NCBI RefSeq assembly: GCF_008831285.2
Contig: NC_045146.1
Coordinates: 184,001 to 248,000 of the forward strand
From: Nymphaea colorata
Taxonomy: Eukaryota; Streptophyta; Magnoliopsida; Nymphaeales; Nymphaeaceae
Length of the DNA: 64,000 nucleotides
Reading direction: 5' to 3'
Shown: positions 1-60,700 of the stretch, one piece after another
Layout of the letters: each line of letters starts with the position of its first letter
Numbering within the stretch: position 1 is the stretch's first letter
Program-made: the position numbers and the translations under genes
Notes under the pieces: generated by a model
What the model saw: the letters and a program-made list of their open reading frames with translations, nothing else
Databases searched by the model: none
Told to the model about the DNA's origin: nothing

Positions 1-2150
1 CCAGGGAAAAAAAAAAAAAGATGATATACTTTAATGATTCAAAAGCTCAGGCCTTTTAATTAAACAACCTTGATGCATCAAATTTGAAAAGCTGTGATCT
101 GATTTTGACGTACTTTGGTCCTTTCCATTGGAGAACGTGCTGAAGGGTCCAACGGTTGTGACCCTTCGTTCGAGCACCTCTTTACCATGCACCTTTCTTC
201 TTCACACCCAACCAAAGGTGACTCGTGATTGTTTACTAGCTATAGTGCATGATGAGAGCGGTTTCAGTGGTTGGAAAATTTTCTAGGATCAGTCCTTACT
301 CACCTTCGGCATTCTGCGCCTGTGCTCATCGATGGTAGCCGTTGGCTGAGGAGATTGTCTGTCCTCATTCTTCTCATGGTGCATCATGGCAGAAACCTGT
401 AAGTGTCCTATCTGTTTATTTCTATGCATGAACTTGAGCATGTTATGTCTGGTTTTTACTCCAAAAGTCCAACAGTTTCTTCATTCATATTTGAATTTAG
501 ACATTTGAACATCCGAAAAATTAGATATAATTAAGAGTACATTCGATTAGAAATCAATCTATTAGAAATCAATAAAAGTTGCATAAAGGGGCTGAAGGCA
601 TGTTTTTGCAGTAGGAGCTCTTAGTGAAGAATAGACAACCAACAACTTATGGTGGGAGTATATGTGGGAATCGAAAGAAATTGTTCCCCACTAGCTACCC
701 ACCAATTTCTTGGCCCAATAGCCATTTTGGCTGCTACTTTAAAGTTTAAACCAATGTGCTTTCCATTTTCTTCTTTTTCTGCCACTCTTTTTAATAGAAT
801 CAGTTGCAAGAATATTTTGGAGTGGTTAGAAAATGGAATTCATAATGTCCAATGAACTTGCTATTATCTTAAAGTCAAAGGTACTTTTGTTCAAGATCTC
901 GCATTTGATTGCTTTAACAATTGAATACCTAAAGGAATGAAAGTATCTGCTGCACTTTGGAACCCATCAGCAGTGAGATTTTTTCCATTTTACAAAAAAG
1001 TGGAAGCAATGATGTCATCTCCTCAAAGTTAAGAATAACATGTAGGATGCAGGCTAAAAGGTGTGGTACAACTGGTTGGGCAAGAGGCTGGTAGGCAGCA
1101 AGCAGGTGGTTCAAAACTCAGAGGTGCCTGCTCCTTTCCAAAGCAGATGCCAGCCAGGATTGAGGGGCTGTGGGGGTTTCGTGCTTCCAGCATGCGACAA
1201 AGTTTATCTTTCTCCCCAAGGGGGAGGAGGCTGATAGGTGTCTATATATAACTAAGATTGTATGAAGACTTTAAAGGAAAAAAATGGCTTACCAAAATTT
1301 TACTTGTTTAAAATTTTAGATGTCTTTTCAGGCCTACTTTTGCCCATAACTTATCCTAAAAAATGCATCACTTTTCATGAAGCCGAAACCATAAAAGTTT
1401 GAGGCTTTGATAGGAGAATCACAAAAGAATATTTCGTTTTTCTGATTATAAGAAAACTGAAAACTTTCCTTAAGATTTATGTGTTGCATACTAGAAATGC
1501 GTTATTGATGCGACAGAATTTTAGATAATTCAGTGCGGCAGATGACATTCGTATAAGCACTAGGCATGAATTTCAACTTAAAGCTAAGATCCGTTTTTTC
1601 TTAAAAAAGTGCATCAGAATTATGCAGTTCCTACTTGACAACAAGACCTTTATTCAAATGGAAGAGCTGAAGAGTTAAGTATACGCAGCTTTATAATATA
1701 CCATACCAACCAGACTTCCAACTTTCTCATGGTATTGTCCTTGTAAAGGCATTTAATTCGGACTCAGTCCGGATCTACCTCTTAGGAGCAGACCCAATGG
1801 CGGATTTATCTTGTCATTAAAATATATATTAGAAGAAATACAGACTTTTCGTTTTCAAATTTTTCCTTAGTATGTCTATACTTAGCTTTCCAAGTCCAGA
1901 TTAAAATCCCAAAGCACTCACTTCACAAATTCATCGAATAAGAATGTTCAAAAGGTGGAACCTTGAACAGAAAACAAACGGCTGATCAAACGAATTATAT
2001 TAAATTAGAAATTACTAGGTTCTTTCTTTGTGGGAATCTACTTTTCACTAGATTCGGCATATGTGTGGTGTCTCCATACATTGCACGAGAAGATATGGGG
2101 AGCAATAGCAATCTCTCTAATATCTCTTTTATTATTCGTCAGATTTCTAA
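1..2150. other. Intergenic region, no gene recognised
   Basis: AT-rich DNA. The open frames here are under 70 codons, lack family motifs and lie on both strands. The only structured element I can support is the SINE-like copy at 1056-1262. No coding exon with convincing splice sites was seen. Confidence 0.6.
1056..1262 (+). repeat. Possible tRNA-derived SINE
   Basis: An RNA polymerase III type internal promoter is visible. An A-box-like TGGTACAACTGG lies at 1064-1075 and a B-box-like GGTTCAAAACTC at 1108-1119, about 32 bases apart, as in tRNA genes. The rest of the tRNA does not fold as a canonical cloverleaf, so this is not a functional tRNA. A GC-richer body follows, ending in an AT-rich tail near 1255. 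I could not find a clean target-site duplication, so the borders are approximate. Confidence 0.4.
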
Positions 2151-2162
2151 AATTTAACAGTC

Positions 2163-2170
2163 TATATATA
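2163..2170 (+). promoter_or_regulatory. TATA box of the Bet v 1-like gene
   Basis: TATATATA lies 81 bases upstream of the start codon at 2251. With the usual 25-35 base spacing, transcription would start near 2195-2200 and give a 5' leader of about 50 bases. There is no ATG between the predicted start of transcription and the chosen ATG except a short one near 2182 that is quickly closed. Confidence 0.5.
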
Positions 2171-2250
2171 CAGGTTACTGCAATGTGTGCAACAGACTTC
2201 AGTTCTAAAACAAGAGCTTCTCAACAAGAGATATAGAGAAAAGCGGAAGA

Positions 2251-3458
2251 ATGAGAAGCCTCAGTGGGGAGGTCATACTGAATGTTCCTGCACATACTGC
2301 ATGGGAAATGTATAGGGACAATGATACTGTTAGCAAGATAAGCCCTGACATGCTTGCTGCAGCTGAGTATCTGCAAGGAGATGGATCTCCTGGAAGCCTG
2401 CGTCTCTTCAAGCTGGGTCCTGGTAATCCTTCTCGAATTCTATTAGCTATTACTAACCATGTCCGGCCGCCTGGCTACGGGTTTGGGCTTGAGACCTTCG
2501 AGTTGAAGGAGGTCAAGAGTTTGAAACCGAGCGTCTGCATGCATAATCTCCTGGTAAGAGTTCTCTATGATGTGAGGAAGCCCAGTCTCTTTGAAGACAT
2601 CCGATAGAAGTGGAATGATGTGAGGAAGACCACATAATTGGTAGTTACATATTGAGGCTGCTGACATATGTGAATCACTTGCAAATATGTAGGTGCCAAG
2701 TTCATGCAGGCCCTTCAATGGCTTTCTTAGAACCATATGCACAGTTTTATGCATACAGTTAGACATATTTGGGAGATTAATGTACAAGATACTTCTAAAT
2801 ATTGACACAATATAAACATATGTGCTTATGCTTCATAGATAGATAAATTTATTTATAAGAAGCGCGGTGCATAGATAGTCTATCTTATTCATGCTCTGTT
2901 CTGGTTGTGCTTCCTTTGTCCTCTAATAGTTATAATTACTCTTACCTTAAGAGTTGTTGAACTCTAGAACTTCCTCAGACGCTTTAAGCTAAAACCATGC
3001 AGGCAGAGGCATCCTGAGCCTTTATGAGGGACGCAGTAACCATCTTTTGTATGTACTCTTTTGTTGCATAACGTGGTGCACAGAAGGATGCATGTGTGAT
3101 ATCAGTCCTGAACGCACTCTGTAAATGGGCAGGAAGGCCTAAAAGAACTGTCTGCTTTTATGGTGAATTAGCTGTGCAGGACTATGTCAAGGAGTCGACG
3201 GAACGGATAGACGAGGTCGAGGTTGGCCGCTCGGTGACCTACAGCGTCCTTGCTGGTTGCCTCAGGGAGATGTACAACCCATACAAGGTCACATTTTCTT
3301 TCTGCCCTGTGCCTGGCTTTGAGAAAGAAAAGTGCGTCGCAGGGTGGAAGGCAGAATTTGAGCCCCTGAATTCCACTGTGCCTGCACCAGAGAGGGCAAA
3401 AGAAGCTGCTCTTGGGTTCCTCTGCTTGTTTGAGAAGTTCTACTGTTCAATGAAGTGA
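2251..3458 (+). CDS. Bet v 1 / PR-10-like (START-type, SRPBCC) protein, 2 exons
   Basis: Exons 2251-2422 and 3172-3458 join in phase 1 to give 152 residues, the normal length for Bet v 1-like proteins. The donor is gtaatc. The acceptor is the ttag before CTGTGCAG, not the later gtgcag, because only the first keeps the frame and yields the expected FKLGPAV...YVKESTERID junction. Family hallmarks are the N-terminal GEVILNVPAHTAWEMY strand and helix, a glycine-rich loop GDGSPGS (about residues 43-49), the central IDEVEVG strand, and a C-terminal helix ending LFEKFYCS. The family folds into a seven-stranded sheet with a long helix around a hydrophobic cavity that binds small ligands such as phytohormones, flavonoids or alkaloid precursors. 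The ligand of this member cannot be read from sequence. The intron of about 750 bases contains an overlapping open frame that is a read-through artefact. A TATA box precedes the gene. Confidence 0.87.
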
Positions 3459-5199
3459 TTGGTGCAGCTTCAGTGAGATACTTCTGCTAGACAGTGACTT
3501 TCCAAAGGGTTGACACGTATCCTGTTGGAAGACTAATGGGAGTAACTTACGTGCATATGGGCGTATGCATGTAAATAGACATAATATTGTTTACCGTCAA
3601 GATATTCTGTATACCAGACTGTATTAAAACTCCTTTTGGCTACTCTGTACATGTTTATTGTCATCATCATCACTAATATACTCCTGATGATGAGGAAGAT
3701 GATAATTGCTGAAAAGTGGTATACAGTGTAATCGCACTATATAATATAAAGAAACGATGTAATGGAAAACATTATGTCTATTCAAATGAATTATCTACAT
3801 AACAAGGGAATAGGAGAAGGAATATATTTTTCTGAAGAATGCAAGAAAAGAATTGCTGAAAGGACCTCAAGCAAGCAATGATCATAAAAGAAGAGGGGAT
3901 TGATAGAAGAACCATTTGCGACGAACCGCTTTTAATCTCCTCCCTCATAAATGATCTTAGAGATGAAACCGATGGTTATTTTCGATAATATTGAAAGGCC
4001 CCTGTTTGTTATTTGAAACGATCCTTCGTATTGTCACTAGACAGAGAAGAGATAGAAGCAGATCTAAAGTTACCAATATATAAGTGGATAAGGAAAGCGC
4101 TGGGAGACGCAAAGGGAAGAAACGGATCTCCGAATTGCTAAGTGGGATTGGAGCCATGTAGACAGAACAATTATATACAGAAAAATATGCGTGAAAAAAT
4201 AACAAGTACGAAAAAATTAAATTAATTAGAAAAATAAGAAAAGAAAATAAAAGCTGATGGGGAATTAATTGTATACTCATGGAAAAATAATAATGTCATA
4301 TTATAAAGAAACGAAAAGTACATTAAAAAAAAGTAGGAATAAAAGAATGATGCAATGAAATGAACTCCGAAAGAAATTATTCTGAGAAGCGAATCTCCCG
4401 TTCTAAATAAAACGAATCTCCTATAAACGAGCTCCCAGTCTCCACCACTTTGAGGGAAGACTATAGTTTCCGGTTTAACAAGCAGGTTTTCTCGTGAAGC
4501 GAGATCTGAAATGCACGCGACTGTTTCTGGAGTTCAGCAACCAGGCCAGGTTAGGGCGTCTCTTCCTATGCTACCTTCGGATTCGACCGGTTGCTGGAGT
4601 TCAGCAACCAAAAGTTGCAGACTACATACATACATCGGTTTCTCCAGAAAATACAGAGACAAAAAAAATCATGGGTGCTGTTTTATTTGGGGAGATTCGT
4701 CTGTCCAATAGTGGACCATTGGTTTCCCTCAACCATCTTTCAGTAAATTTTCAGAATTTTTTAAGCTGGGGTTAACTAGAAATCTACCTTTGAAGAGAAG
4801 AGGCACGGGTTTCTTAGGCGCTGTTTTCCTTAATTTTAGGGCGAGATTTGATTAATTCCTGTGGATGATTATTTCAAAAGTGACAAATTTTTGAATCAAT
4901 CCAGCCATCTTGCTGACAAATTTTCGAGTCAATCGAGCCTGAGAATGCTTGATTTGGTTCAGAATAGAGATCGGAATCACCTTTTGAAGATCACCAGTAT
5001 TTTCTGCATTTTCCAGCTGTCGACGAAGAACTCGGGCGTGTTTGAAATTCCCGTCGCCTTGTTCCTGTAAACGAGAAATATCATTTTTTTACCCAAATAT
5101 CATTTTTTTAATTTTTATATAAGATACATGAAAGTGCCCCTTTGATTGCCAAGGAGAAAATTGTGAAAAATATCGTGAAAAATATGTACAGGCAGCAGT

Positions 5200-5279
5200 G
5201 AAATTTCACCCGCCCGTCTCACGACAAACGGCATTAAATTCTTCTCTCATTTTTCATTAAAACGAGCGGGTGAAATTTC
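5200..5279. repeat. Inverted repeat (18-bp arms)
   Basis: The left arm GAAATTTCACCCGCCCGT at 5200-5217 is the reverse complement of 5262-5279 with a single mismatch, leaving a loop of 44 bases. Each arm also holds the palindrome GAAATTTC. It could be the core of a small hairpin-type MITE. No target duplication was found. Confidence 0.6.
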
Positions 5280-5677
5280 ACCCGCTCATTTGAGCTGTAA
5301 AATAGGGGTGAGCAGGGGCGTCACTCCAACACACGAGCATAAATAGTTGGGGGCACACGTGTGCTCCACGGATTTTATTCTACCAAAGTTTAAATTAGTG
5401 GAAAGTTTAAATTAGTGGTTGAACTTAAAAAAATATGAGTCAAGTTATATAGAATAGGCAATTGAAAATTTGTTAGCCATGTGCTTAGTGACAAAAAAAA
5501 ATATATCTTCGCACCTGCACTACTGCACTGAAAGCAGTTCTGATCAGCCGGCTGGTGGGGTTTCTTTCCGCTCTCCCGAAACTGCTGAAGCACTTGGCAG
5601 CTCCTCGTTGATCTCCCACATTCCACGCTTATGAGTTGCGAAAAATATTACAAGAAAAAGAAGGGAATTTAACTTAA

Positions 5678-5890
5678 ATGGCATTGTCCAAGGGCGTGCC
5701 ACAAAACATCGTTCCACGACAAGTCCGTGAGATAATGAAACAGCTGGAATGTAAAGAAGAGGAGACCACTGGTAATCATCTCCCATTCCCAAGCCGCTGT
5801 AAGTCTTGCGGCGAAGCAGAGGAGACCCTGGATCATCCTTTTCCACAATGTAATGAAGTCAGGGTGGTAGGATTGGTGTGTGCGAAAGAG
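5678..5890 (+). pseudogene. Possible relic of a non-LTR retrotransposon (zf-RVT-like zinc motif)
   Basis: The frame contains CKSCGEAEETLDHPFPQC, a C-x2-C-x7-H-x4-C arrangement that resembles the zinc-binding domain (zf-RVT) found after the reverse transcriptase of plant LINEs. There, a motif like C..C....ET..HLF..C is typical. No reverse transcriptase or endonuclease motif is nearby, so this could only be a fragment, or a chance match in a low-information frame. It could also be a fragment of another gene I do not recognise. Confidence 0.25.
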
Positions 5891-7045
5891 TATGCACTTG
5901 GTGATAGTGTGCGTCATACATTTAAATTCAGGTGTGATCAAAACCTACCCAAAATAAAAAATTCAAACAAGTTTGAAAAAGTTAGTTTAACTGTCCTTTT
6001 TGTCCAGTTCAACTGCCTATTGGAAAGCATGACAGCATTTTTCTTCTTGATTCAAAACATAAGCGGGGGTTTTTGGAAAATACTTGGTTAGATGTGCGGA
6101 TTTCTTCCGAATGTGAGAAATCATAATTTGAGTCGTTGAAAGAAAGGTTCTTCTTTCCAAAATTCGATCCTAACTTTATACACGTAATTGACCAACTACC
6201 CTGACCTTTTTCTCGAGTGTTTTAAATTGGTCCATGAGGTTAAAGCAACACTCAAAATTATTCATTTTCAGCAAAAAAACACATATTACCCCTGACAAAT
6301 TAAGAAAGAAATGAGCTAATAATAGAAATATAGAATGACAAGCATTTCTCAAACGACACAAACCCATCATTTTGAGTACATGAGTGCGGAGTAAGTTACC
6401 GACTACTGTAAAAAGCAAAAACTAACTCGTCTTAAAATGTCATGGTTGGATTCCTGATTCAGAATAAGCCAGAGATGACTTTAGGGAAAAATGAGCAAAT
6501 CACACTTATTAAAGTTGGTGACAACGTCCCGAATGATCTGTAAATAGAAAGCTCAAGTCAGGTAAGCAATTATGGACACATTTCTACGGTTGGCATTCAT
6601 GACAAGAACAATTTGTTCTACCTTCATTCAAGAATTCATAGAGTCATTAATGAGCTCATTTTGAGTATGCTAAATGAACAGCTTCGCTGTGAAGGTGGGA
6701 AAATTCAGAAGCTTTTTAATCATTCTGCAGTTTACATCATAAGGAGAGAGAGAAGAAAAAAAGGAACGCTGTAATATTAGGTTTGAAACAAGAGGTATGC
6801 TATGGCAGCTAAAGATGTTACCTTCATTTTCATGTCCACTGTGAATGGATCATTACACAAATTTGCTTTTGCAGAAAACTGAAATTACAAACCGCAGTAA
6901 TGATATATGGTCACCAATCAGAGAAATCTTGTTATGCTGAAGCTTCTACATGCTTTCTTTATATATATTGGATATTCAGGGAATGCAGACATTGGGAAGC
7001 TCGTCTATTTCCGTGTACAATAGCAGCAACAATCCCCGGTATGAG

Positions 7046-9787
7046 TCAACTGAGAACAACAGGAACCTTCTCGTATTCGATCCTCTCCCTGAGTTTCCGA
7101 GGGAGGATGCATCTACCCCCAAACCTTTGCTGCAGGTATATCAGAATTGCAAAAACCGTTCCTACTAAAGGAATCATAAAATCCCAAGCAGCAGAATAGA
7201 AATCCCATTCTGGGTCGGCGTAGTAGTAAGACAATCCCTGCCGAGGGATGTTATAGAAAGACCTGTATGCATCATATATGTGGGGAAAGGACCGAACGGC
7301 TGTTAAACCAATAAAAAAAGAAGGTGAAAGTGCCTTCTCTTTCAAGTGTGCAAACAGGTTCAGTAGAACCTGCGGCAAGAGAAACCCATCAAGGACCAGC
7401 CCAACATAAGATTCGAGATCCTCTAAAACAGAAGGCTGCCCAATTTCCAGCTCCCGGATGTATTCTGGTGATTTCCAATGAGCAAAACATGCAAATAAAC
7501 CACCGACAATGTAGAGTAACAAACATAAGCTGAAAGAATTACTCTCTGACACGGATGAGCTTGACCTTGCCGACCATACCAACTGGAGAAGCCGGAACTG
7601 CAAGAGGAAGGCTATCAAGGTGATTACCCTCACGAGAATTTCATCCACTTGCACCCAACTTTCGGTTACATAGAGAGTCTTCCTGTGTCCATTGGCAAAG
7701 GAAGCTTCAAAGTTGAGCACCAAGGGGATCATATACCCAAGTGTAAGCACGGCAGCCATTCCAAGCGACACAAATGGAAGCACCTCAGGATGTTTCTTTA
7801 CATGCAAAAGCTGTAGCAAGACAAAGATGGATACCAAGGTGAGAGATATCAGCACCATAGCTATCTCCGTGTCCATCATAAGGACTGACGTTCTTGTCTG
7901 AACTAAGTATGGAACAGAAGACCAGAGCTTCAGAGACTTAAAATAAAGAGGATCTGCACTCTTTCTGATGCTCTTAATTGTGCCACTGAATTGTTCACCA
8001 ACGGCAAAGTTTTCAGTACTCAGAGGTGGTAACTGAAAATTCATACTGATTTCACAATCCATGACGTTAGTGCCATTGTCCTGGCGAACGTGGCGGCAAC
8101 CAACCATGCAGAGAACCCCAGTCACAGGATCATACACACCTTCAGCAGATATAACCAAGGATGAGATTTTTGGAGAAATCCCATCCAAATGAAATGTGGA
8201 AGGAAGATGAATGTCTACAACGTAGCTTATGTTCATCGGGCTCTGTCCGTTATAAGACTGCACTGGAGAGGCGGCATACATGACTTGACTCACATTGGCA
8301 AATTTATCTGGGTAGACACCTCCATCATTGGCCAATGGAGATAGGGTACCCCAAGTATGCTGTTTTAGTGAGTTTTTCACACTCACCTGAAATACCATCT
8401 CATTGCTCGAGTATCCATCCGGATATAGCTTTCCAGAGTGCTTCTTAGCATCAGCTTTACACATTTTTCTCACTCGTTCATACTGTGTGAATTCATACTT
8501 GAAATTTACTATATCGACTTCAGCAAGATCCATCTCCTGGCCAAAAGAAAGGCGTCTAAAGAACCCGGATTCATTCAATCTTTTGTTACTCCAAATACTA
8601 CCCTCAACAGTCCTTCTGTCCGTAAGTGTTAATCTCGAATGAAAGCTCAAGTTCATACCAATAGTACAATCACCAATCCAGGCACCCGCTAATGAATGCG
8701 AGTGATTCAGAAATCGACAAACTGAAAAGCACAACTGATTGCTTTTCTCATCCCAAATCCCCTCTCCGATCAATGTCCTTTCAAGAGGAACAACACCGGG
8801 AAGGCCACGGTAAAATCGAGATTGATGACCATATGTGACATTCGAAAATCCGAACAATAAGAAAACTTTCCCTTCGCCAGAACAGTCCAGACCAGCGAGC
8901 ACCATGGATGTCGAACGACCTTCATCGCTACTGAAAATACTACAATTCCCAGATTTGCAGTCATGTTCATATTCCAAGTATAAAGAACTGAATGACATCC
9001 GCTGGAGTGAAAAACAGATGTTCCCTTTCCCACTCACTGCACTATGTCCAGCATCTGAAGCAGAACACATGCCTTTGGCTTCCGAATCCAAGCTGTAACT
9101 ATGATTCAGACGAGAAACTCCTAACAGAGACATCGGCTCCACTTTATTCACATCACTGCCGTCATCCTTGCTAGGAAATTCCAATGCCCCAGTAACCAAA
9201 CTACGCTCGATTGTCGAATTCTTTGTAAAATTAAGCTTCAAGACTGCGGAAAGGTCGAAATTAGTACCTTCTCCGGAGACGCCCAAACCGGAACCAACCA
9301 TACAAAGCATCCCCGATGACTCTTCCCAGAAACCACCAAGAGAGAGAGATATGCTGCCTCTGCTACGGAAACGCTTCGGCAGCCGAGGCTGAAACGAGGG
9401 TGAAACCGAAAATGAGGAATTCCCCCACCTCCTCGACCCTTGGATCAACAAATACGCATCGACTCTCAGAATTCCCGGTCGATCCGTGGCGTAGACGCCT
9501 TTCTCTGTGAATTTCGCCAAGCTAAAAGTCGGCAATAAGAGCGACTGACGAACGTTCCGACCGAGAATACTTTCCGCGCCCCGGTAAAGATAGGAATCAG
9601 GGAGGCCGAGCGGCGTGCTCAGGACTTCTCCGTCACGACTTGCCTCTGACACGATCGAGTCGCAGTGGGGCTTGTAGGGGACCTGGGTGGAAGAAGAGAG
9701 GGAACAGAGGAAGAGGGAGACGAAGAAGAAGGAAAAGAGGGTCGGAGAAGGAGGCACCCCAAAACTCCGGCGGGAGAAGGTCGCCAT
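7046..9787 (-). CDS. DUF2921 (SWEET-like domain) multi-pass membrane protein, single exon
   Basis: A single uninterrupted frame of 913 codons from the ATG at 9787. An upstream ATG at 9829 (14 codons more) is in frame, but it sits where transcription should start given the TATAAAA at 9851-9857. The 9787 start also gives a clean signal peptide (MATFSRRSFGV then a run of hydrophobic residues to about residue 33). Residues of about 35-635 form a large predicted luminal or extracellular part with many N-x-S/T sites and paired cysteines. The last 275 residues carry about seven membrane spans and the short tail ending YEKVPVVLS, typical of the DUF2921 family. The family includes the Arabidopsis FLY1/FLY2 E3 ligases, which carry a RING finger after this region. 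No RING is present here, so it belongs to the RING-less subgroup (At1g52780 type). Its biochemical role is not known. Confidence 0.92.
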   Translation of the reverse strand: MATFSRRSFGVPPSPTLFSFFFVSLFLCSLSSSTQVPYKPHCDSIVSEASRDGEVLSTPLGLPDSYLYRGAESILGRNVRQSLLLPTFSLAKFTEKGVYATDRPGILRVDAYLLIQGSRRWGNSSFSVSPSFQPRLPKRFRSRGSISLSLGGFWEESSGMLCMVGSGLGVSGEGTNFDLSAVLKLNFTKNSTIERSLVTGALEFPSKDDGSDVNKVEPMSLLGVSRLNHSYSLDSEAKGMCSASDAGHSAVSGKGNICFSLQRMSFSSLYLEYEHDCKSGNCSIFSSDEGRSTSMVLAGLDCSGEGKVFLLFGFSNVTYGHQSRFYRGLPGVVPLERTLIGEGIWDEKSNQLCFSVCRFLNHSHSLAGAWIGDCTIGMNLSFHSRLTLTDRRTVEGSIWSNKRLNESGFFRRLSFGQEMDLAEVDIVNFKYEFTQYERVRKMCKADAKKHSGKLYPDGYSSNEMVFQVSVKNSLKQHTWGTLSPLANDGGVYPDKFANVSQVMYAASPVQSYNGQSPMNISYVVDIHLPSTFHLDGISPKISSLVISAEGVYDPVTGVLCMVGCRHVRQDNGTNVMDCEISMNFQLPPLSTENFAVGEQFSGTIKSIRKSADPLYFKSLKLWSSVPYLVQTRTSVLMMDTEIAMVLISLTLVSIFVLLQLLHVKKHPEVLPFVSLGMAAVLTLGYMIPLVLNFEASFANGHRKTLYVTESWVQVDEILVRVITLIAFLLQFRLLQLVWSARSSSSVSESNSFSLCLLLYIVGGLFACFAHWKSPEYIRELEIGQPSVLEDLESYVGLVLDGFLLPQVLLNLFAHLKEKALSPSFFIGLTAVRSFPHIYDAYRSFYNIPRQGLSYYYADPEWDFYSAAWDFMIPLVGTVFAILIYLQQRFGGRCILPRKLRERIEYEKVPVVLS

Positions 9788-9850
9788 TTTCGAGAAGGAT
9801 TTCCTCTCGCGTGGATCTCTGGGCTTCATCTCCCCCACTGCGCTCCGCCG

Positions 9851-9857
9851 TTTTATA
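9851..9857 (-). promoter_or_regulatory. TATA box of the DUF2921 gene
   Basis: Read on the minus strand the sequence is CGGTATAAAACGG. It lies 64 bases upstream of the ATG at 9787. The expected start of transcription is near 9825, which argues that the in-frame ATG at 9829 is not used. Confidence 0.6.
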
Positions 9858-10163
9858 CCGGCGACCTGAGGAGGAACACGAAGACCAAGAAATCGTGGTG
9901 GTTGTTTAAACTCTACACTAAAATGCCACTGATTTTGTACTAATTTACATAAATAGCGCAGTTCAGGATCAAGCCGAGAAGTTGACCATCTTTTAGTCAT
10001 TATTCCATATACAACCTTCACATTATTAATTTTCTTAATAAGTCCTTAAATTTTATAATAAATCTTGAAAACAAGCCCAAATTGTAGCATTGCCGTTTAT
10101 TTCCAAGACCGATCCTGATAATGGGCTGCCGACGCACCTATAAATTTTGAGGGAGGGCCTTAA

Positions 10164-10298
10164 GGCACACTTGGTATAAAAAAGTTTATATCTGATTTTA
10201 GACATTTTTTAAGAAAAAAAATTCATCAAAAAAATTGAAAAGGTATGTTTGTTTCTAAAATTTTGAAAAGATATTCTTTTCAAGCAACAAGTGTTCCC
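10164..10298. mobile_element. PIF/Harbinger-type MITE (Tourist-like)
   Basis: A 135-bp element flanked by TAA on both sides (10161-10163 and 10299-10301), the target duplication of the PIF/Harbinger superfamily. Ends are imperfect inverted repeats: GGCACACTTGG on the left and the complement of CAAGTGTTCCC on the right. The interior is AT-rich and non-coding. Confidence 0.6.
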
Positions 10299-10846
10299 TA
10301 AGCAAAACATTTGTTACGTCATTTTCCAAAGAATTCAATCACTCGATAATATTGTGTCATGTGTCCTCACATAATTGAGCTATTGGCCCTCGAAACGCAA
10401 CTTTTTCATTGCCATTTCGCTTTCGTTATTTAAAAAACAGTCCTCACCCTTTCACTAGATAAGTTTATGTGTTGACAATAAGAAGGGAAGACGTGAAAGC
10501 TCGTCTCCCATATGAACATGTATTACGTGAAAAATGTTCTAACTTTGTTCTTATTAAATGCAAAATATTTGTTTTGTTCGCATTTTGGTTTTTCATCTCT
10601 AAACTAAGGAGGAAAAAACCCATCAACTCCATAATCAAGGTGAATGAATCTATTAAAAATGTGACAAGATTTGCTTTATTTCAGAAAACGGTAGCGTTAA
10701 AAAATTTGATCTGTAGTCATTGTCTTAAAACCACTTTTAACTTTTCCTTTCCACCCTCTCTTCACTCAACTGAACTCAAATTAGAATTTCTTTGGAACAA
10801 AACTTAAGGGGAAAAGAGGGCAAGGGGCTCCGGAAATGCTTCCACA

Positions 10847-11085
10847 TAGGGCCGTTCAATGAACCAAGTTTATGTTTTTTGAGATTCGAGCCCAAAATTT
10901 GGTCGTTTTTGTTGATCTTCAAAATAATTTTTTTTTAATAAACGGCTCCGTGAAGCTCAAACAAATCCCATTAAGTGTTCTTAAACTCAAGCAGAGGAAA
11001 GTTGAGTTATGTTTTTTGAGACTCAGATCTGAGTTCAAGATGGCTCGGCTCGACTCGACTCGAATTCGGCTTGTGAACGACCCCA
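10847..11085. mobile_element. hAT-type MITE, 239 bp
   Basis: The left end TAGGGCCGTTCAATGAACC and the complement of the right end, TGGGGTCGTTCACAAGCC, form imperfect terminal inverted repeats of the Ac/hAT kind. The flanks CTTCCACA (10839-10846) and CTTTCATA (11086-11093) are an 8-bp target duplication with two mismatches. The right subterminal part carries the GGCTCGGCTCGACTCGACTCG motif array shared with the larger hAT element at 13033-16406. Confidence 0.65.
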
Positions 11086-13024
11086 CTTTCATATTGCCGT
11101 TCAAAAAATACTATTAATATAAACATCATATAGTTGTAAATACATGCCAACAAAACAATGTCATGTCATATACGGAAAAAATTAATCTCTTCCTTAGCCA
11201 CATTTTTTTACTTATGGCACCAAATTCCAAGTCAATGCTTGATATTGAGTTGTTTCTCTCTTTCTCTTAGCTCAGTTGGTATGTTGTTTTACTATACATT
11301 ATATTGTATATTTTATTTTTTTTTGCTTATGTTTTGCGTTTGTTTGTTATGGTAACTGAGGGGCTTCTTGTTCCCAAAGTTTGGTATTGATTACCATTTT
11401 ATCGACTCTATTTCTACTGTTTTTTTGTATTTAAGCGTTACGTGTTGATCAAGGAACCACTGATAGGTCTACCTTGACGAGGCTATCAAACATAGTTTAA
11501 ATACACCAAGCAATCCGATGCTCCAAGCCAGAGCTCGGGCCCGGCTTTTAAATATAAAATAATTTTTTTGAATATAAAGTATATTTTAATAATAAATATA
11601 TATTAATTAGTAAAATAAAAATAATTTTAAAAACCTATCGGGCCAACTCAAGCCGATTTTTTCGAGGCCGAACCCAAATTGAAAGTATAAAGAAACTTTT
11701 CACTGCTAATTGAATGAAGGATGAGAAAATTTGTTGGAAGCCATAAGTACAGACCCACATATTTATATAGTAGTTCTTACATACAACATAATTTATTATA
11801 TAAATCGATTATAAATTAGTGCCCCTTAAATTTAGAAAGTAAAAAATAGATTTGCTTCTAACAAGTCAATCTGGATGATACCCATATTGAGTTTTATCAT
11901 AAAACTTATTTAAAAAACTAATTTTTTACAAAACTAGTTTCCACAAAACCAAAATTGTGGCAATTTTTTTCTTGATGATGTCGCATTTAAGCTGATCGAT
12001 ATCATGAAGAACTCCACAAATCTCCTCTAATTATCAACATTTTAAATCATTTAAATTAGGTTTAGGCAGCATATTCGTGATTTACGTGTTTGATTTAAGT
12101 CTGCCTTATAGAAAAGACGTAGTTTGAGGTAGAAAAATCATGGTCGAGAGATTGACAATGTCAAAGGAAATATGCAAGTCACATTTATATGGTTACATAT
12201 ATGTCGTGAAGACAAAGACTTATGCAAGTCTTTCAAAAAGACTTTCATGAATAGAATTCTTAGTGGGCCCTTCTCTACAAACACGGGATTGGACAAAGAA
12301 AGTAGGAATTGAATATGAGGTGCATGAATTGGGTCTTACTTTAATAATTAGTGGTAGGTTTCAAAGAAGCGGTCCTCCCAAACTTGAGGGCGACTTGCGA
12401 CTTATGCCCTTTTACCCGTTTCAGGGGCGAAGGCAGGTGTAGGCACTGTGTGGGCAATTGCTTATACAAACCCATAAAAAATTCATATTTGTTTTTCATA
12501 TTTGATACTATTTGTTTTTCATATTTGATACTTTAGAGAAATTTTCTTTATTTATATTCTCATGCTTTTTAAAAATTTAAAATTTTATAACCAGTGCCCC
12601 TTAACAAAAAATTTTCTGAATAATCTGGTGGCCCAAACTTAGTTTGCTTTGGAGTTGCCAAAATGGGTCTGAATCAAGCTATTCAAATAGATTTGATATA
12701 CCATCTGATTGGCATATTTGTTTATTTGTTATATTTTGTATTTTATTATTTTTAATTGGATTTTTCTTAGTTAAACCGGATAAATTCTAAAATTTGAATT
12801 GATTCACAGGAACTCATGTTTCAAGCCAATTTCAGCTGATTCTTAGAATCTTTCTAGCTGACTTGCTTGACTCACAAATCGATTTTAATAGCATTGGGTT
12901 ACTTTGATCGGAAATCAACTTGCAGTCGTCGGGGCCCATGAAATTGACAAATTAATGAGGAAACTTTACCATTTCCATAGCAGATGAATGATCACAGGTC
13001 AGTGGGTTTCTCGGAAACTTCTTG

Positions 13025-13032
13025 CCTGTTGT
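13025..13032. repeat. Target-site duplication (left), CCTGTTGT
   Basis: Identical to the eight bases at 16407-16414. Eight base pairs is the diagnostic target duplication length of the hAT superfamily. Confidence 0.85.
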
Positions 13033-15150
13033 TCGGGCTGCACAACGAGTCGAGCTACTCGAACTCGACTCGTTTAAGCTCGACTCATTTGTTAAACGAG
13101 CTGCTTCATTAGTTAAACGAGTTGAGCTCGAGTTCACGAGTCAACTCGTTTAACTAATCGAGTAGAGCTCGAGTTCAGTTCACTCTAGTGGACTCGTTAA
13201 AGCTCGACTCGGCTCGATTAACATACCGATTTTAAAAAACCGGTTCAGGTTCAGCTGTCTCACTTTTTCTGAGGCGGGAAACAAGTTTAGGTTTTTAATT
13301 TCTTTTTTCGTTCTAAGCCTTCTAGCCCTAGGGTTTCTTTTTTTTGTTCCCCTTCGGCCTTCTCTCCGACTCCGACTCTCCCTCTCTCGCCTCTCGGTCT
13401 CTCCGACTCCGACTTCTCCTTCTCTTCTCCGGCGAATCCCCCCCTGTGCTCTGCCCCTCTGTGCTCCTGCCGCCCTACGTCAGTGTGCTCTCCGCCTCTC
13501 CGCCTGTAGCTGTTCCGGGCTCCTCTCAAGTTTCGATAGGTCTTTCAGCGGGTGCTTGGGCAGCTGACGACGAATGGCGGTTGAGGATGGACGGCAGCTG
13601 GCAACTAGTGACGACGACGACTGGAGACGGACTGCGAGTGGGCGACGCCGATGGCAGGTTTTTCTTTTGTTAGTTTGTTTGTTCCCTTTTGATTTTAGGG
13701 TTCCCATCTCCTTTATTGTTGCAGGATTTCTTCTTCTCTCTAGTTTCCCAAAATTGATGGCGCATTCTGGCGGAATTTCCTGCTCCCTGTTCATGTTGTA
13801 CTGTCGTGTTTTGAGCTTTTTCCCTTTTCTTGATACATTCAGTTCTCAACTTTGATTTCCTGCTCCCTGGTATGTTCGTTTTCTTTTTTCTCTGAAAACT
13901 GTAACTTGCAATGCTTGAAATAGACTACCTGCTCCCTATTGATGCCATGTTCTGTTATGTGTGCCTTTTTGTTAGGCTTCATTCCCCTGTGCTTCATACA
14001 TGTTCCCTTGTCTGCTTCCATTTGATTTCATGTGTGGCTTTCTGTTAGATTCTCTTCCATTTGCTTCATATGCGGAACACATGTGGTTTTGCATATGCCC
14101 TTGTCGAGTTTTCAGACATGTTCATTAATTTGATTATAACTTATAAGTTATGCACTATGTAGCTTACGATTGTTGTTGACTTGTTGTTATATCAATGTTG
14201 TTTTATGTTTTTCAAGTACATTTAAGTCACTTGCTTGTTTAATTATTATTGTTATGTTATAGTATGGCTGCCTCAAGTAAAGGGAAGGGAAGTACCTTTA
14301 CACCTACAAGTTCAAGTTGTGCATTGAGAGCTTCATTACAGTCACAAGAGGACCAGCCACATAGCTAATTGACTGCCGTTCATCCTAATTTTCTCAGTCT
14401 GAGGTACTTAGCTTTCTATCTGATCGACTATTTTGGCAGAAAACTTATTGATGATGACTAAGGGTTTTGGGTCTAACGACTAACAATGTCATGCAGCATG
14501 TTGTTAGCATATGTATCAGAAAAGGAGGTGTAGATACTGGCCAAGGACACAATGAATGGTTGGCTACAATTCCACGCACTCCAGATGTAATTTCAATATC
14601 CTTTGTGCCTATTTAATACGTAAGTGATTAATCTTCTACTTATTGAAGTTTCTTGCTGGTTTTACCAAAATCTGTAACCACTTATATTCACTAATTACAT
14701 GCGGCAGCAATAGTGAGTTTCCTTTACTCCAAGAAATGCCTTTATTTCTGCTAATCGGTAGCCTATCTTTTTAATGAGACAGTAACCTTTTACTTTATTG
14801 TTTCTAATATTTTCAAAATAAGCCACAGCTAAATTGGTCTTGTATATACAATCAACACCACTTTTTATGGTATGTACAATTAGATTTGTTGAACGGGTAC
14901 CATTTTCCAAGTGTCTACATCTTATTTTCGGGTCTGGCAAAATGTAAATGACTCTTTAAGGTATTCCTGGAGGTTGACATCTTTCTTACTTCATTTTAGC
15001 TATATCATCGATCTTCCAAACACATTTTCTTACATTTCATTGCCCAAGGCAACACATACAAATGGAACATTGTGAATTGATTTTGACCAGTTTTATTACC
15101 TTTTACTGTTGAAAGTTGATATCCTTCTTATGGTGTTCGTTTTTCTGCAG

Positions 15151-15383
15151 TTGTTTGAGTTCTTTCTCACTATTGTTGGTGATAGGAAGCTGAGTAAGGT
15201 AATGGTTTGTATTCTTTTGCTATTTTTGTACAAATGATCAGTTATCACTAAGCCATGCTGAATCATGTCTAAAATTGTAAGTGTCTTTTGTTTTTGGGTC
15301 ATTGTTTTCTCTAGGTTGTTCAGGGAAATGTTAAGGAGCTGCTGTATTATGCTGTTGCTTTTCTGCAAATGACTGAAGAGCAT
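15151..15383 (+). pseudogene. Captured importin-9-like gene fragment (2 exons with intron)
   Basis: Two exon-like blocks in the same phase. 15151-15198 encodes LFEFFLTIVGDRKLSK, bordered by ctgcag and gtaatg. 15315-15383 encodes VVQGNVKELLYYAVAFLQMT followed by EEH, bordered by ctctag and gtaggt. The wording matches the importin-9 family (karyopherin, nuclear import HEAT repeats), where a stretch like VQ.N..ELVYYT.AFLQMTEEQ is conserved. The intron is kept, so capture was from genomic DNA rather than from mRNA. The fragment has no start and no continuation. The family call is from memory of the motif and should be tested by a protein search. Confidence 0.55.
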
Positions 15384-15443
15384 GTAGGTTTTGATCTCAC
15401 AAGTGCATCCATATTCTATACTTTACTCAAAGATCCAGTAAGA

Positions 15444-15585
15444 GATGACAAGACTATCAAGGTTGGTTGAATATATAAGTGTTTGATATTACCTAAAGAT
15501 GGTTGCTAATCTCTTGTGTGGGTAGGTGTGGGATGCGGTTACTGGTGCTAAACAATATACGTTTGAGTCATGAAGCTCCTGTTTA
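15444..15585 (+). pseudogene. Captured TOPLESS-family WD40 fragment (2 exons with intron, frameshifted)
   Basis: 15444-15461 encodes DDKTIK followed by a gt donor. 15526-15585 resumes after gggtag with VWDAVTGAKQYTFE. Together they match the TOPLESS/TPR corepressor WD40 segment DDKTIKVWD..TG.KQYTFEGHEAPVY. After TFE two bases are missing, so HEAPV is read out of frame and a stop appears. The intron between the blocks is retained. This is a different gene from the importin-9-like piece 60 bases upstream, so the element joins fragments of two genes. Confidence 0.7.
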
Positions 15586-16406
15586 GGCACTTGCTTCAAA
15601 AGGGTATGTTAATCGACATACCCTCAAAAGGGTGCTGAAAGGGTATGGCACATGCGTGCTTCAGGTATGTTTTTTGGAATCGTGAGATGCAGATTGTGCC
15701 ATAAATTTTGCTTTTTCATATTAAATGCTCATAATACCTTTGGAATGTTTTTTCTCCCCCCATAATGCTTTTTTTTTTTAATTTTGTTTCAGGTTGATTG
15801 CTTCCATGCTCTACGAAGAAGTGATCCACCATTTGTCTCTTCGGCATCTTTCCTGCAGCAAGGATTATTTTCATTTGTACGATAACAATAGCTTGGTTAA
15901 TTATGTTGTTACAAGTTGATTATGATATCTTCACATTCTTTATTTTCATATTATATGGCTTGAAGATGATTCTATTATTTATATTTTATTAAGCTCAGTC
16001 ATATTGTGCGTCTGGTTTAATAATTTCTATTTCTATCAGATGGAAGAAATAAAAAATATTCCAAATGTAGTTTCATCGAAAGGGTATGTTAATCGAGCCT
16101 TAAACGAGCTCGATAAGGATATGAGTAATAATCGAGCTCACGAGCCTTAGTCGAGCTTCACGTATTTGAGCCTTAGTCGAGCTCACGGTCGAGCTCGAGC
16201 TCAACAAGTATGGATGACTCAAGTAAACGAGCTTATCGAGCTTAATCGAGCCGAGCTCGAGTTCGACAATTGACTATCGAGTCAAGTTCGAGCTAGGATA
16301 GTCGAGCTATAATCGAGTTCGAGCCGAGTCGAGCTCATGTCTTACTTAGTCGAGTCGAGTTCGAGCTGACCGAGCTCGGGCTCGACTCGACTCGTGTTCA
16401 GCCCTA

Positions 16407-16414
16407 CCTGTTGT
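16407..16414. repeat. Target-site duplication (right), CCTGTTGT
   Basis: Perfect copy of 13025-13032 on the other side of the hAT element. Confidence 0.85.
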
Positions 16415-19400
16415 CCTACTTGAAAGAAAGAACTTTTTCCTTTTGGGGGACAACTTAATCCTTGTCAACAATCTCGTTTAGTATCAAAATTAGTTTAAGT
16501 AAACTTTGAAAATTGGATTTGTGATGTGGTTTTATCCAGTCAGGCAATGCATTTTTTTTTTAATGCGATAAATTAACTAGCCGTTTAAAACTTAAAAGAA
16601 AACATGTTTTTTTTTATGTTAAAAACGAAAAAAACGAGTTTTTAACCTGTTTTTTCACGTTTTTTCAGTTTTATTCAGTTTTTTAAATGTCAAACAGTTT
16701 TTTTTTTTCATTTTTTTGTTGTAAATATACTGATCTTTTGATGTTTGTGTTATTAGTTTCTCACTTATTTTATTTTCCCCTTATTTCTAGTTTTTTAAAA
16801 AATTTTAAATATTTACCATACTTGTTTTGTTTTTTCAAGTTCACCGCATTATAGCCGAGAAAAATCTCGCCGTTTTAAAACTCTGAGATGTTATTTGTGA
16901 CTATGGTTTTAACATCAACTGAATTGACATCCAAGGAGTTAGGAGACTATCTTTTGATCTTCAATCTAAACGAAGGCTTCGATTTTTGTTTTTCCGCATA
17001 GAAAAGCGGTTTACAGTATTCAAAAGGAACAAGGTTATCACTGCCGTTTTATTCAATTCAATTGAGCTTTTCATCCAACAGACAAGCCTATCATTTGGCA
17101 GCTGCAACAAAAGTATGGCTCCTACAACAAACTCAGGAATGTGAGCGCGAAAGGACAGAAAATTTTGCAGAGGAAAGGGGTGGCTACAAGAAATGGTAGC
17201 AAGAATTTGTGGACAAGTTAAGATGTTGATCCATGCTTCTATTCTGTTAGCTTATAATTGTCCTGGTTCTTAGTCTTTTTCAAAAGAGAATGAAACCGGT
17301 AATGAGACACATTAAGATCTGCCAAACTGAATACTCTGGTCAATTTCGAGTCCGGCCATTGCAATGGCTTCATGTATCATGAATCTTACTAAGAAGAAAT
17401 TGTCAGACAAGGGGCAGAGGCAGTGTGTGGACAATCGCCCCCCAAAAACCTTTTTTGTTTCTATATTGATATTTCTAAGATTTTTTTTTCATTTATATAT
17501 TGTCGCCTCTTAAAATTTTTAAATTTTATGCCTAATGCCCTTTAGCCAGAATGTTCTTGGAAGGTTTTATGAAAGATTGAAAGTGGGAGTGAAAATAGGA
17601 GGCCTTCACGTTAGGGATGCCAATCGAATGAATTTGGATTGGACATATAGATGACATGACCTTTTAAGGTTTTGCTTAACTTGATTTAGAATGGGATTCA
17701 GATTCAACTATAGGAATAGAAAATCATATCATAATTTTTGCATATTAAGGGATTCCAACATATACAGATAATTTGTCAGATATGGTATGTGTGTTCGATT
17801 GTTAATCAGATGTGGATTTCTTACTGCATCAAGTTCCTTGAAGTTGGATTTGGGTCAATTATCAAATCGAGAATCAGTGGCGTAATTATTTCCTGACACT
17901 ATTGGCCTCCTTTGAAGAGCTGAAATTATTATAAAATCAACCTTTCTTGGACCATGATGCCAAATTCCAATAGAGAAGCCATGTATTTGGTATGCTGTCA
18001 AGGATGAAGAAGGCAATTTTATTGCCTGTAGTCTTGAAAGAAGTTCAAGAGATGTGATATTCCTTGAATCCAAGGGTGGAGTCACATATACGCATATAAA
18101 GATGCCTTTAGTGCGCTTCTTTAGACTTGCTTATAGCTTCAATTGTCACAAATATTGTTTGTGGGTTTCAAATATATATGGTGTAAGTTCCCTTTTCGTC
18201 AACGCGTTCTACTTGGGCGTCAATCACGTCAGTAATAAATGTTTTACATACGCAGTAAATCATGTGAAGAAAACAACATGAAAGTGTCTTTTCCAGTTTT
18301 TTTTTGGCTTTTTTTTTGTTTTGTTTTGGCGTCCTTTTCAAAGAATGGGTCTTTTGCAGTTCTTTTTTTGTTGACACGTTTTTTATGTACACAAAAGTTT
18401 TTTACGCAAGAAGACCAGTTTTCTGTGATAATGCTTCGTACTGGACTTGTTGGCAAAATGAAAATCACGTCTTTCGCAAATCTAACCATATGGAAGTCCC
18501 CATATTTAAAAGCTAGAAATTAATGATATGCATAAAGTTTGGATTTTACACTGTTTTTCCAAACCTCCACAGAAAGCAATCTGGAAAAACAAATGAGTTT
18601 TAGCTCAGCTCATTACACCGATCAAACAATGTGCGAGCCAAGCTTGAACTAATCATGTCGATTATCTAAATGAAGTAAGACATCCTTTTCTACCCTTAGC
18701 TATCAATGGAGCAAAGAAATCTGGACAGCTCTGTATGTTCCATACTAGCATCTAAACAAATCTGCTACTATTGTTCTGTTTCTGCAATCAAACAACCTAT
18801 TAGAAATTCCATCATTGCAGCTTATTTAAATTATTACTACTGTAATAGTGAGGTTTTGCAGAAACAGATATAAAACCCAAATCACTGGCTAAGGAAGCAA
18901 TCAAGTTTAGATTGCGAGCACAAGTTGATAAACCAGGTCTACCATTCTTCAAGCCAAATAATAGAAACTAGATTGGACTGTACGGGGAACAATGCATGAT
19001 GTACATAAGCTTGGACCCCTATTAGTTGGCTCTTTTCAATTTCAATCTCAAGCTGATTGCCGTTGTCATGATGAGGTAAGACATTTGATAACTATTTTCT
19101 CAAAAACAACTTGTATCCACATGGTTCAGTTGAAGCCCCAATATTGGTCAAGCATAAGGACGATATATCACACAATGCCCTCTTAAAGACAGAGCTGGTC
19201 TGCCAAAGAAGCATCAGAAGATGTTGGTAGGCCTGGATATTCCACGATTTGCTTAATGCTACATCAGGAATAGTAAAAGATTGATACCTGAATATAAGAG
19301 TTCTTAGGCATACCTGATTAGGATCCATAACAAGTTTCTTCAAGGTTTATTCAAGCTGGACCTAGTATTCGGTCAATGGACAAACATGCTCTCCATCTTG

Positions 19401-20296
19401 AAATGCTAAATCAAGATCATGTTTGAACTGAATTCAGTGCATCGATGGTTACAAAAGAACAAGAGATAAACTGCCAACCAAAACAAGAACATGCAGGGGA
19501 CATTTGATGTGCATATGTCAAATCAGATATGGTTGGTTACAATATAGCCTGAACAACGGTCTTTAAGTAGATATGCTCGCTTTCTGAAACAACAACATGT
19601 GGAGGAAAGGGCCTCAACATGCTGCTTTGAATCCTACCGTAATTTACGTTGTGTGCCCATGTCTAAAGGAGAGACAATTTGAATAACTTGCCTAACGTTC
19701 TAAAACTAATAGGGAGCAAATTCATAGTTCAATACCAAGAACTAAAGACATAAAGAGCATGAATATTATGGAGTCCTGAAAGTCATCCGGCGACTCGGGA
19801 AAAGGTTTCGCTGCAATCATTTTTTATAATTTAAGTAAATGAACCATGGTTATGCACCAACAAGGGCAACCTGCATGTAGCTACTTGTCCTCTACCATAA
19901 TTGCAGATGAGAGCTAAAAATTAAAATTTTTAGAATGCCACATTTATAAGAAAACTTGTGTGGTAACAACTTGCCTTAAGCAAATGTTTGTACAGAATGA
20001 ACAAATGAAAACGAAATGAGCTTATTTGATAAATAATGCATCCAATGGTTCATTAACCATGTAACTACAGAATTAGCATTGGTTAAGCCATTTTACTGCT
20101 AAAAAGGGACTACCTAGAAGTAAGCAGTTAGTAGAAGCCTCAGGACCACTATCTACAAGCTATTCACAGTATAATAATTTGAAAATTGGAAGTACCACCA
20201 GCACTTGTATTTAGTGGAGATGATGAAGATAATGGATGGTGAATCCGTGATTTAGCAATGCAATTATTGTATCCGCAGATGACCAATCCATTGAAC
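16415..20296. other. Intergenic region, no gene recognised
   Basis: Holds one copy of an AT-rich repeat (16560-16886) and a degenerate repeat near 17410-17545. A TAGGGATG-type hAT end at about 17613 has no matching right end. An ATG-less open stretch at about 17960-18110 (+) reads as protein-like but is not recognised. The last 1-2 kb should contain the 3' end of the E2 gene transcript. Confidence 0.5.
16560..16886 (+). repeat. AT-rich dispersed repeat, copy A
   Basis: A block with the order GCCGTTTAAAACTTAAAA, then runs of AAAAACGAAAAAAACG / TTTTTTCACGTTTTTTC, an anchor AATGTCAAACAGTTTTTT, a TTAGTTTCTCACTTATTTTA segment, and GCCGTTTTAAAACTC at the end. The same order recurs at about 37284-37720 on the other strand and about 55757-56087 on this strand. 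It has no coding capacity and its class is unknown. Confidence 0.65.
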
Positions 20297-23200
20297 TCAG
20301 TTCCAAACTTTAACCAAGAGTTTTCGTGGCCGAGATTCTTTTGGCTTTGGGACAAATTTCTGGCAGTCAGCACCATTGTCCGTAAATGCTGTGACCAACT
20401 GTGGGAAGAGATGAGATAAGGAATCCTTGAAACTTTTGGAGCAATGCCCATGTCCCTGGTTCACATCCTGAACTCCATCAGCCAGATGGCCAACCTGAGC
20501 ACCCTCCATGTACGCTTTACATGCTTCCAGAATACATGGTGCTTTATCACGGAAATATCCGGCAACAAATGATTCAAAATGCTGAAAGTTCACAATGAAG
20601 CAAAGGAAGAAGAAATGGCCTGAGAAATTCAATCTGAGCTCCGATTTTAATTAATAAAGAAAAGCTCCAGAAATCAGTACACCAACAAAAAAATGGTTTA
20701 AACTTTAAACTACAATATTGAGAAGAGAAACCACCAAAGAAAGATTGACGTATGAGTGATTTATTGAGTTGCAGAGATTGGACTGCATGCTGGTCAATAT
20801 TTGTGCTCATTGACCATAATCTCCTTAAGAGCTACTCAATTACGCAGTTACTAAGGATCAACCAGAGAGGTGATCCAAAATCAGTAAACAAAAACTCCTC
20901 AAACAAAACCATTTTCCAAGGTTGTTAAAGCTTCAAAGTACGGGGATATCTTAGAGAGGAAATAGAGTAGAGCCTACCTTTGGTGGTTTCCGTAGCAGGT
21001 GCAACATGGACTTCAGGCATAAAATGAAGGTGTTTTCATTGTAGGCCCTTGCATGTCTCTCACCGTCTTCTTTACCTGCCGATGCTTCATATCCTGGCTC
21101 ATTGAAATAAGGCTTCTCATTTAGTACTAGAGCTTGGATAGAAACCAAAACTTGAAGAATAGTAGACCGTTTTGGTATCCATGTCTCATGGTTGACACGG
21201 CTTCCAGGCCAAGTATTCAAAAGGCTAAGGCAGACTCTGCCACAAGCATACAAATTTGGATTCACTCTGTAGCCAAAAGAGTGGTAATGGACCATCTGCA
21301 TAAACGCCAATAAAATGTTACCTTTTGTTACAAATTCAATAATTAAAGAAGAAATGAAGATGAAGTCTGATTATCAAACTCCAACCGGTGGGGTATGTGG
21401 ATACTCTTGTGGCAGGCAGATGTCAAAGAAGAAAAGACCATCGTGGTATGGAGTTCCAGCTGCCCCAACAATGACAGCCCTTAAAAGATCCATCCTTTCT
21501 TCATAAGCTCTAACATATACTGTGTCTGTTGAATTAAAGAAATATAAACACAGAAAAAGAGTGCTCATTGAAGAATATGAAAAGAATAAAATCATCAGTA
21601 AAGCGTTTACAGGCACCAATGAACTTTGAGACTTCAAGCTCAAGTGCATTAAAAAAATTCAATGACATTATTCTATGTTCTTGTGTTATGACATACAGTG
21701 CGAAAATTAATTTGAAGTAGATCTCTGAAAGTTGATGAGTGTCCTAATTTACTTAAGTAAATACTAAATACTAATTCGGCAAAGTTGATATCGATTAGCA
21801 AACCATAAATAGTCAGCTTCCACTAGATTATTGTTGAATTCTTTAACTTTAGAACTAATAAGGCATATGAACATGGGATAATGAACGCCAGACCTGTCAG
21901 ATGAAGTTAGGGCAGTCTTTTGCAATTTTTCTTCCAAAAAGTAATTTTACAAAAGGCATAAAAAAGTTTTTGATTACATGTTAATTAAATATGTGATGGA
22001 CCATTGTGACAAAGATCATGGATATTTGTCAAAATATCACATTGAAATTTGAAAATGAAAAAATAAGGAAAATAAAAAACATGAAGTTTTGAAAATACTG
22101 AAAAATGGAGAAATGGGGACGGTCATGATATTTTGAAAAAAAAAAGTTGCCAATTTTTTTTTTTTTTTGGTTGCTTCATTCTTTTTTCAAAAAATATTGT
22201 TTAATATACTTATGTTTGTTGGGTTTCTTTCAAAATTTAAGAAGTGTTTTGATTTTCTACAAATAAAAAACCTTACCATCGCCAATAAGAACTTGAGAAC
22301 AATATTTGTGATAATGATTTGGACAACGAATCTAAGTGCTTGCTAGATCACAAGGCATAGGTAGACTATCCTTTTCCAAGATTTGACACCAAGTGCATCA
22401 ACCAAATTATTTTTTTTATGACGACACTTGGTAGAGTAATTATCTATTCTAAGAAGCAAACACTTAACATATGTTCCTTGTTAGTTCCCTTACTAAATCA
22501 AGTCCCCCCAAATTTTTCTCCAGAAAAGGTTTTTTTCTAAAGGAAAAAATAGCATGTGTCATCAAGAACAGGAAAAAGAAGTACTCAAAAAATTGCTTAT
22601 AATGCAGATTACCCTCTTCCCTTAATGATGCCAACATAACATGAACAAAAAATGTACCTGGCAAATCCTTCTCCAAGATGCTCCATTCATGCTGTACCTG
22701 TTTTGTCCATTCCTTCAATGCCAGTTGTTTCATCTGAAAATAGGTGAATTTTTAGATTATCAAACATCTCTAGGAGAAGGAGATCCTAAAATCGTTTCCT
22801 GCTTACCTCAGGAGGTGACTTCTGTCTAGAAGGAATTATATGAAAAATTTTGCCTGGCTGATGTATTTTGACAAAGTGATGATCTGAATGATCAATAACA
22901 GTGTCAAAGGGCTTAAAATCTTTGAATAGTTCAGTGGTCTTCTCAATCTCCTCAATCAAAGGAATGCTTTGGCTTGGCCCCGCTGAAGAGCTTGGCTCTG
23001 GCTCATGAGCAAAAATATCCTCTGTCCAAGGTGAGAAAGAATTATCCTCCACATCATCATCTTCTTCTCCAGTTTTCATATTTTCAGAATAACAATCAAA
23101 ATTATTTGAGATTGTGCTTGTTGGTGAAGTGCCCATGGGACCAGGACCATCATTTAGCCCAAGATATGAAAGATCATCAGGATTAAGAAGAAGTGCAGCT

Positions 23201-60605: not shown

Positions 60606-60607
<2 letters not shown>

Positions 60608-60697
<90 letters not shown>
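60608..60697. repeat. (TA)n microsatellite, about 45 units
   Basis: Uninterrupted TA repeat of about 90 bases. Confidence 0.95.

Positions 60698-60700
<3 letters not shown>

Follow-up and report, generated by a model that had tools for sequence, protein, structure and literature searches.

A very probable Pack-hAT element of Nymphaea colorata with captured fragments of apparently three, probably four, genes

The window analyzed here is the whole stretch of 64,000 nucleotides of Nymphaea colorata DNA, and the feature under study is an element of 3,374 bp at 13033-16406, which we read as a non-autonomous hAT element. Its neighbors, both on the minus strand, are a DUF2921 gene (7046-10045, identified by Pfam) and a match to a ubiquitin-conjugating enzyme (approximately 21209-21514). 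A six-frame Pfam search at E 0.01 detected only the DUF2921 gene in 9000-13024 and nothing in 16407-21200, so the insertion site appears to be intergenic, with the caveat that small exons could be missed by these scans. One copy of a dispersed repeat, present as an inverted pair (16657-16918 and 37249-37525, 79% identical), begins some 250 bp beyond the right end of the element. Elsewhere, the window contains a tandem duplication of about 120 bp at 31214-31452 (87% identical), a Copia-type LTR retrotransposon at 42629-46608 (LTRs at 42629-42899 and 46336-46608, 94.9% alike) with gag, Pol_BBD, and RVT_2 matches over two frames, and a TA-type simple repeat at approximately 60600-60698, which appears as a long Ile-Tyr run ending an open frame. 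Rfam returned nothing at gathering scores in the window.

The element is flanked by an 8-bp target site duplication (TSD), CCTGTTGT, whose left copy (13025-13032) and right copy (16407-16414) are identical at 8/8 bases; a perfect duplication had been reported in an earlier note on this DNA. Members of the hAT superfamily have short terminal inverted repeats (TIRs) of the TAGGGNTG type. The left TIR (13033-13054, plus strand) reads TCGGGCTGCACAACGAGTCGAG, and the right terminus, reverse-complemented, reads TAGGGCTGAACACGAGTCGAG; relative to the consensus, the left end is TCGGGCTG, with one change, and the right end is TAGGGCTG. Two subterminal zones rich in TCGAG/CTCGA lie at the ends on the plus strand, the left at 13033-13227 and the right, which includes the right TIR ending in CAGCCCTA, at 16083-16406. 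There are 11 such sites at 13050-13213 and 23 at 16093-16386, with 1 elsewhere in the element, and the clusters within the element are confined to these two intervals. The inner edge of the left zone (13211-13227) forms a perfect 17-nt inverted repeat with 16083-16099. With the 8-bp TSD, the TIRs, and the subterminal motifs all present, the hAT identity given in the earlier note was borne out, as was its description of inverted ends and motif-rich subterminal zones. The left zone also contains a near-palindrome at 13101-13165 (25-nt arms, 88% complementary, 15 nt between), and a three-site TCGAG/CTCGA cluster at 11049-11059 lies outside all three elements described here.

The 64 kb were scanned for paired ends with up to 3/11 mismatches to two starts modelled on the element, a TSD matching at 7/8 bases or more, and a length of 80-6000. 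Two pairs were found in the window, the element itself and 58854-59245, and in 20 control windows, shuffled by 50-base blocks, the mean was 0.2 pairs and the maximum 1. Because the scan starts came from the element at 13033-16406, 58854-59245 is the independent match; it is a short sibling element of 392 bp with similar ends and a perfect TSD, AATATGAG. A further 399-bp element at 53269-53667 is a probable diverged sibling, based on its TCGAG clusters and termini, and has a TSD of 7/8. It is graded as probable only, because a looser scan with up to 4 mismatches yielded 18 pairs compared with a shuffle mean of 12.85 and a maximum of 19, so its ends alone fall within the shuffle background. The expectation that the two ends would be paired at other loci, as in Pack-TYPE elements, therefore held for one clear and one weaker sibling, with the 64-kb window as its scope.

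When all six frames of the element were searched with Pfam at E 0.1, with stops written as X, no hAT transposase domain was detected; a short remnant could escape such a scan, and the result fits a non-autonomous hAT member. MACPF was the sole Pfam family above its cut-off in the six-frame scan of the element, and a minus-strand match to WDR72_alpha-sol (15.1 bits, cut-off 20) was taken as chance. A GC-rich, leader-like stretch, recognized by its composition, occupies 13290-14365 on the plus strand and contains a possible intron at approximately 13658-14262, with borders read by eye. Within it lies a 34-aa ORF (MAASSKGKG..., 14264-14365, plus strand) with its stop at 14366. The stretch gave no Pfam match at the curated cut-off, and the score of the ORF for Thiopep_pre (11.2 bits, cut-off 23.5) was regarded as chance. 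Judged by its position, 13290-14365 is possibly what remains of the 5' end of the parent element. The start of the ORF (14261-14281) and a segment of the 3' subterminal zone (16207-16227) are alike at 19/21 bases; the best of 60 two-base-block shuffles gave 18, and none got to 19. Five short peptide strings gave no literature match.

The MACPF match lies in an apparently captured exon fragment of 39 aa on the plus strand (14497-14613), with a CAG acceptor before it and a stop directly after it, where the frame meets TAA at 14614. The piece alone scored 27.3 bits with PF01823, compared with a gathering score of 21.5, and 22.8 bits were obtained for the entire frame, in which stops were written as X. 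Against the PDB, the piece gave 19 matches with E 0.054 to 0.44, none named MACPF; most were RACK1-type WD proteins, and all 19 were considered chance matches.

Further along the plus strand are two importin-9-like exons, A (15151-15198) and B (15315-15383), both with GT-AG borders and with lengths that are multiples of three. A 40-aa query, composed of 39 aa from the exons and one residue past the second donor, was compared with 177,635 PDB sequences and found one match, importin-9 residues 336-375, without gaps, with E-values of 0.094 (sequence) and 0.44 (matching stretch). The reversed peptide also found one match, the unrelated LHD101B4, at E 0.76. The earlier note had placed importin-9 at 15151-15383, and that name was returned as the sole PDB match, but the agreement is supportive and weak on the E-value alone. 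It gains support because the name agrees with an independent prediction and because the match is contiguous across the intron, which suggests an importin-9 origin.

The next fragment is a WD40 segment on the plus strand (15444-15585), consisting of exon pieces at 15444-15461 and 15526-15585 with an intron between them. Its frame breaks after 15567, and a stop is located at 15571-15573. The piece had 374 PDB matches to generic WD40 proteins, whose scores arise from several weak repeats, with single stretches being weak (best i-Evalue 4.8 among the alignments listed); Pfam propeller models remained below their cut-offs. The earlier assignment of this segment to the TOPLESS family was thus supported as to WD40, but the name TOPLESS was absent among the best 60 of the 374 matches. 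We take the piece to be TOPLESS-like, and the source gene is probably TOPLESS.

A candidate fourth captured fragment spans 15629-16078 on the plus strand. It consists of three exon-like pieces, 15629-15664, 15793-15876 (84 nt), and 16040-16078, separated by two GT-AG introns, and its outer borders were set by eye. It showed no Pfam or NCBIfam family, and one of its pieces gave no match in the PDB. The three joined pieces had a lone PDB match, HemD, at E 0.28, which was rejected as chance. We regard 15629-16078 as probably a fourth captured gene fragment. The number of captured genes is then apparently three and probably four, and the count of two in the earlier note, which had missed both the MACPF piece and this fragment, was too low.

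The fourth fragment is flanked by two copies of an exact 18-bp direct repeat, AAAGGGTATGTTAATCGA, which occurs twice on the plus strand of the window. The left copy is at 15599-15616, and the right copy, at 16079-16096, forms the inner edge of the 3' subterminal zone and has an inverted counterpart, GGCTCGATTAACATACC, at 13211. Within 13233-16106, no exact direct repeat is longer than these 18 nt, whereas in 300 dinucleotide shuffles the longest repeat averaged 11.6 nt and never exceeded 16. The left junction of the fragment (15591-15650) has the appearance of a scar, in which pieces of AAAGGGTATG are reiterated at 15599 and 15638 and, at 15617, part of it recurs in inverted form (CATACCCT, read by eye).

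All fragments are arranged in tandem on the plus strand, in the same orientation, as the earlier note had described for its two. Among the nine pieces, GT-AG borders at both ends were found in three (the two importin-like exons and 15793-15876), an acceptor only in three (14497, 15526, and 16040), and a donor only in two (15461 and 15664); the WD40 continuation at 15568-15585 has neither in a meaningful way. The importin-like pair and the WD40 pair each retain the intron between their pieces, so the view that capture took place at the DNA level holds. A blastn search of the window at E 1e-3 returned no other copy of the fragments, inverted ones included.

The interior might instead be a decayed ordinary host locus lying under two unrelated hAT ends placed by chance, since the matches of two fragments are weak and one fragment lacks a family match. 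A perfect TSD located exactly at the ends, the shuffle control of the end-pair scan, and the presence within 1.6 kb of exon-like pieces belonging to three or four unrelated kinds all speak against such a locus, which we consider scarcely credible. In contrast, the TSD, TIRs, subterminal zones, siblings, MACPF, importin-9, and WD40 matches, and the lack of a detected transposase domain indicate that 13033-16406 is very probably a non-autonomous hAT element with captured gene fragments, a Pack-hAT. Gene sequence lies between its TIRs without a recognized transposase, as in other Pack-TYPE elements, with MACPF above its cut-off and importin-9 and WD40 weaker.

The content of the element suggests how it may have formed. 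Breaks inside an earlier form would have been mended with copies of unrelated genomic DNA on at least three and probably four occasions, and the transposase gene would have been replaced by exon-intron scraps of MACPF, importin-9, WD40, and a fourth gene. A transposase supplied from elsewhere would recognize the ends and the subterminal TCGAG repeats, and a cut-and-paste move into the apparently intergenic site would have produced the 8-bp duplication. Because the fourth fragment lies between two 18-bp copies of the inner 3' edge, with scrambled edge repeats at the junction, it was probably added at that edge; it would have been copied in during repair of a break there, with the WD40 piece already in place. 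The reiterated edge pieces point to template-switching break repair, which can leave such traces, and the similarity between 14261-14281 and 16207-16227 may be another trace of the same process. The order of capture is inferred from this one junction.

The same junction bears on a second possible route, which contests how the fragments were captured and leaves the Pack-hAT identity as it is. The fragments may have been gathered by fusion of neighboring hAT elements whose internal ends have since decayed, a tandem-insertion model in which a compatible-ended pair moved together and trapped the DNA between. Such a model has been put forward for Pack-TYPE elements, hAT among them (PMC8903248, from the portion used here), and it would account for the copy of the inner 3' edge inside the element at 15599-15616; siblings are also present in the same window. 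However, no internal TAGGGCTG-type end and no internal TCGAG cluster remain, several rounds would be needed for four fragments, and the internal copy is 18 nt amid scrambled repeats, which is more like a repair scar. We therefore treat element fusion as a serious but rather unlikely alternative, and copying during break repair as the capture route to which we lean.

The arrangement of the fragments could also be taken to mean that the element is a functional unit, whose chimeric transcript would either encode a fusion protein or yield small RNAs directed at the parent genes. All fragments share one strand and follow a GC-rich, leader-like stretch with an ATG, and three pieces, the two importin-like exons and 15793-15876, have splice borders on either side and lengths divisible by three. 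Nevertheless, stops occur at 14614 in the MACPF frame, at 15571-15573 in the WD40 frame, and at 14366 in the leader ORF, and an inverted copy of a fragment was not found in the window (blastn, E 1e-3). A functional unit is thus very improbable. With the MACPF and WD40 frames broken, the chimeric frame suggested in the earlier note is unlikely, and on these stops a chimeric protein was rejected; the element most likely makes no protein. A more far-reaching proposal is that a hAT added four unrelated fragments serially, all oriented alike and following the element's own leader, that the latest is marked by the 18-bp duplication of the inner edge so that the order is readable, and that transcripts could act in trans on the parents. 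Taken in full, this proposal seems distinctly doubtful to us.

Gene capture, which the earlier note had called less well known for hAT elements, was indeed described as rare for hAT by maize authors in 2011 (PMC3260210), but it was reported in grapevine in 2008, in maize in 2011, and in maize in 2022, and hAT gene capture itself is already in print (PMC2528002, PMC3260210, and PMC8903248, each cited from part of its text). In the grapevine Hatvine-6 hAT elements, genic sequence with introns and exons is often found inside, and the variable interior frequently corresponds to host-gene introns and exons, as in the element described here (PMC2528002, in the part considered). Unlike this element, in which none was recognized, Hatvine-6 members have transposase sequence in common, and a table in that paper lists a 9-bp TSD, compared with 8 bp here. 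In maize, the part of PMC3260210 considered reports gene fragments in 2 Ds2 and 9 Ds-l4 elements, some with introns, and mentions a compound element, Ds-l4-483. These resemble our element in the 8-bp TSD, the hAT ends, and the filler with gene fragments and introns, for example in Ds2-22. However, in Ac/Ds the TIRs are 11 bp long and the subterminal hexamers read AAACGG, whereas TAGGGCTG-type ends and TCGAG repeats are present here, and according to the Figure 4 legend Ds2-22 and Ds-l4-354 carry one gene each, compared with three or four here.

Pack-hATs have been described in maize (PMC8903248, 2022), and they likewise have hAT ends and a TSD around captured pieces of host genes; their terminal sequences are different, and the portion of that paper considered describes no hAT with three or four gene pieces. 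For Pack-TIRs of animals, a model of repair with fillers invokes gap filling as well as template switching, and the junctions carry microhomology or short insertions (PMC8277862, in part); this is similar to the repair copying proposed here. Those elements are from animals, and the breakpoints of the present element need the parent genes to be fixed. In a limited literature survey covering parts of PMC2528002, PMC3260210, PMC8903248, and PMC8277862, a hAT with pieces of three or four genes was not met, and we make no claim that such an element is unreported.

The element at 13033-16406 is thus ordinary in kind and a good example in detail. Functional consequences of the captured fragments are speculative. 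Its three or four fragments and legible junction scar would make the element a useful case for weighing break-repair copying against element fusion, if the parent genes can be located.
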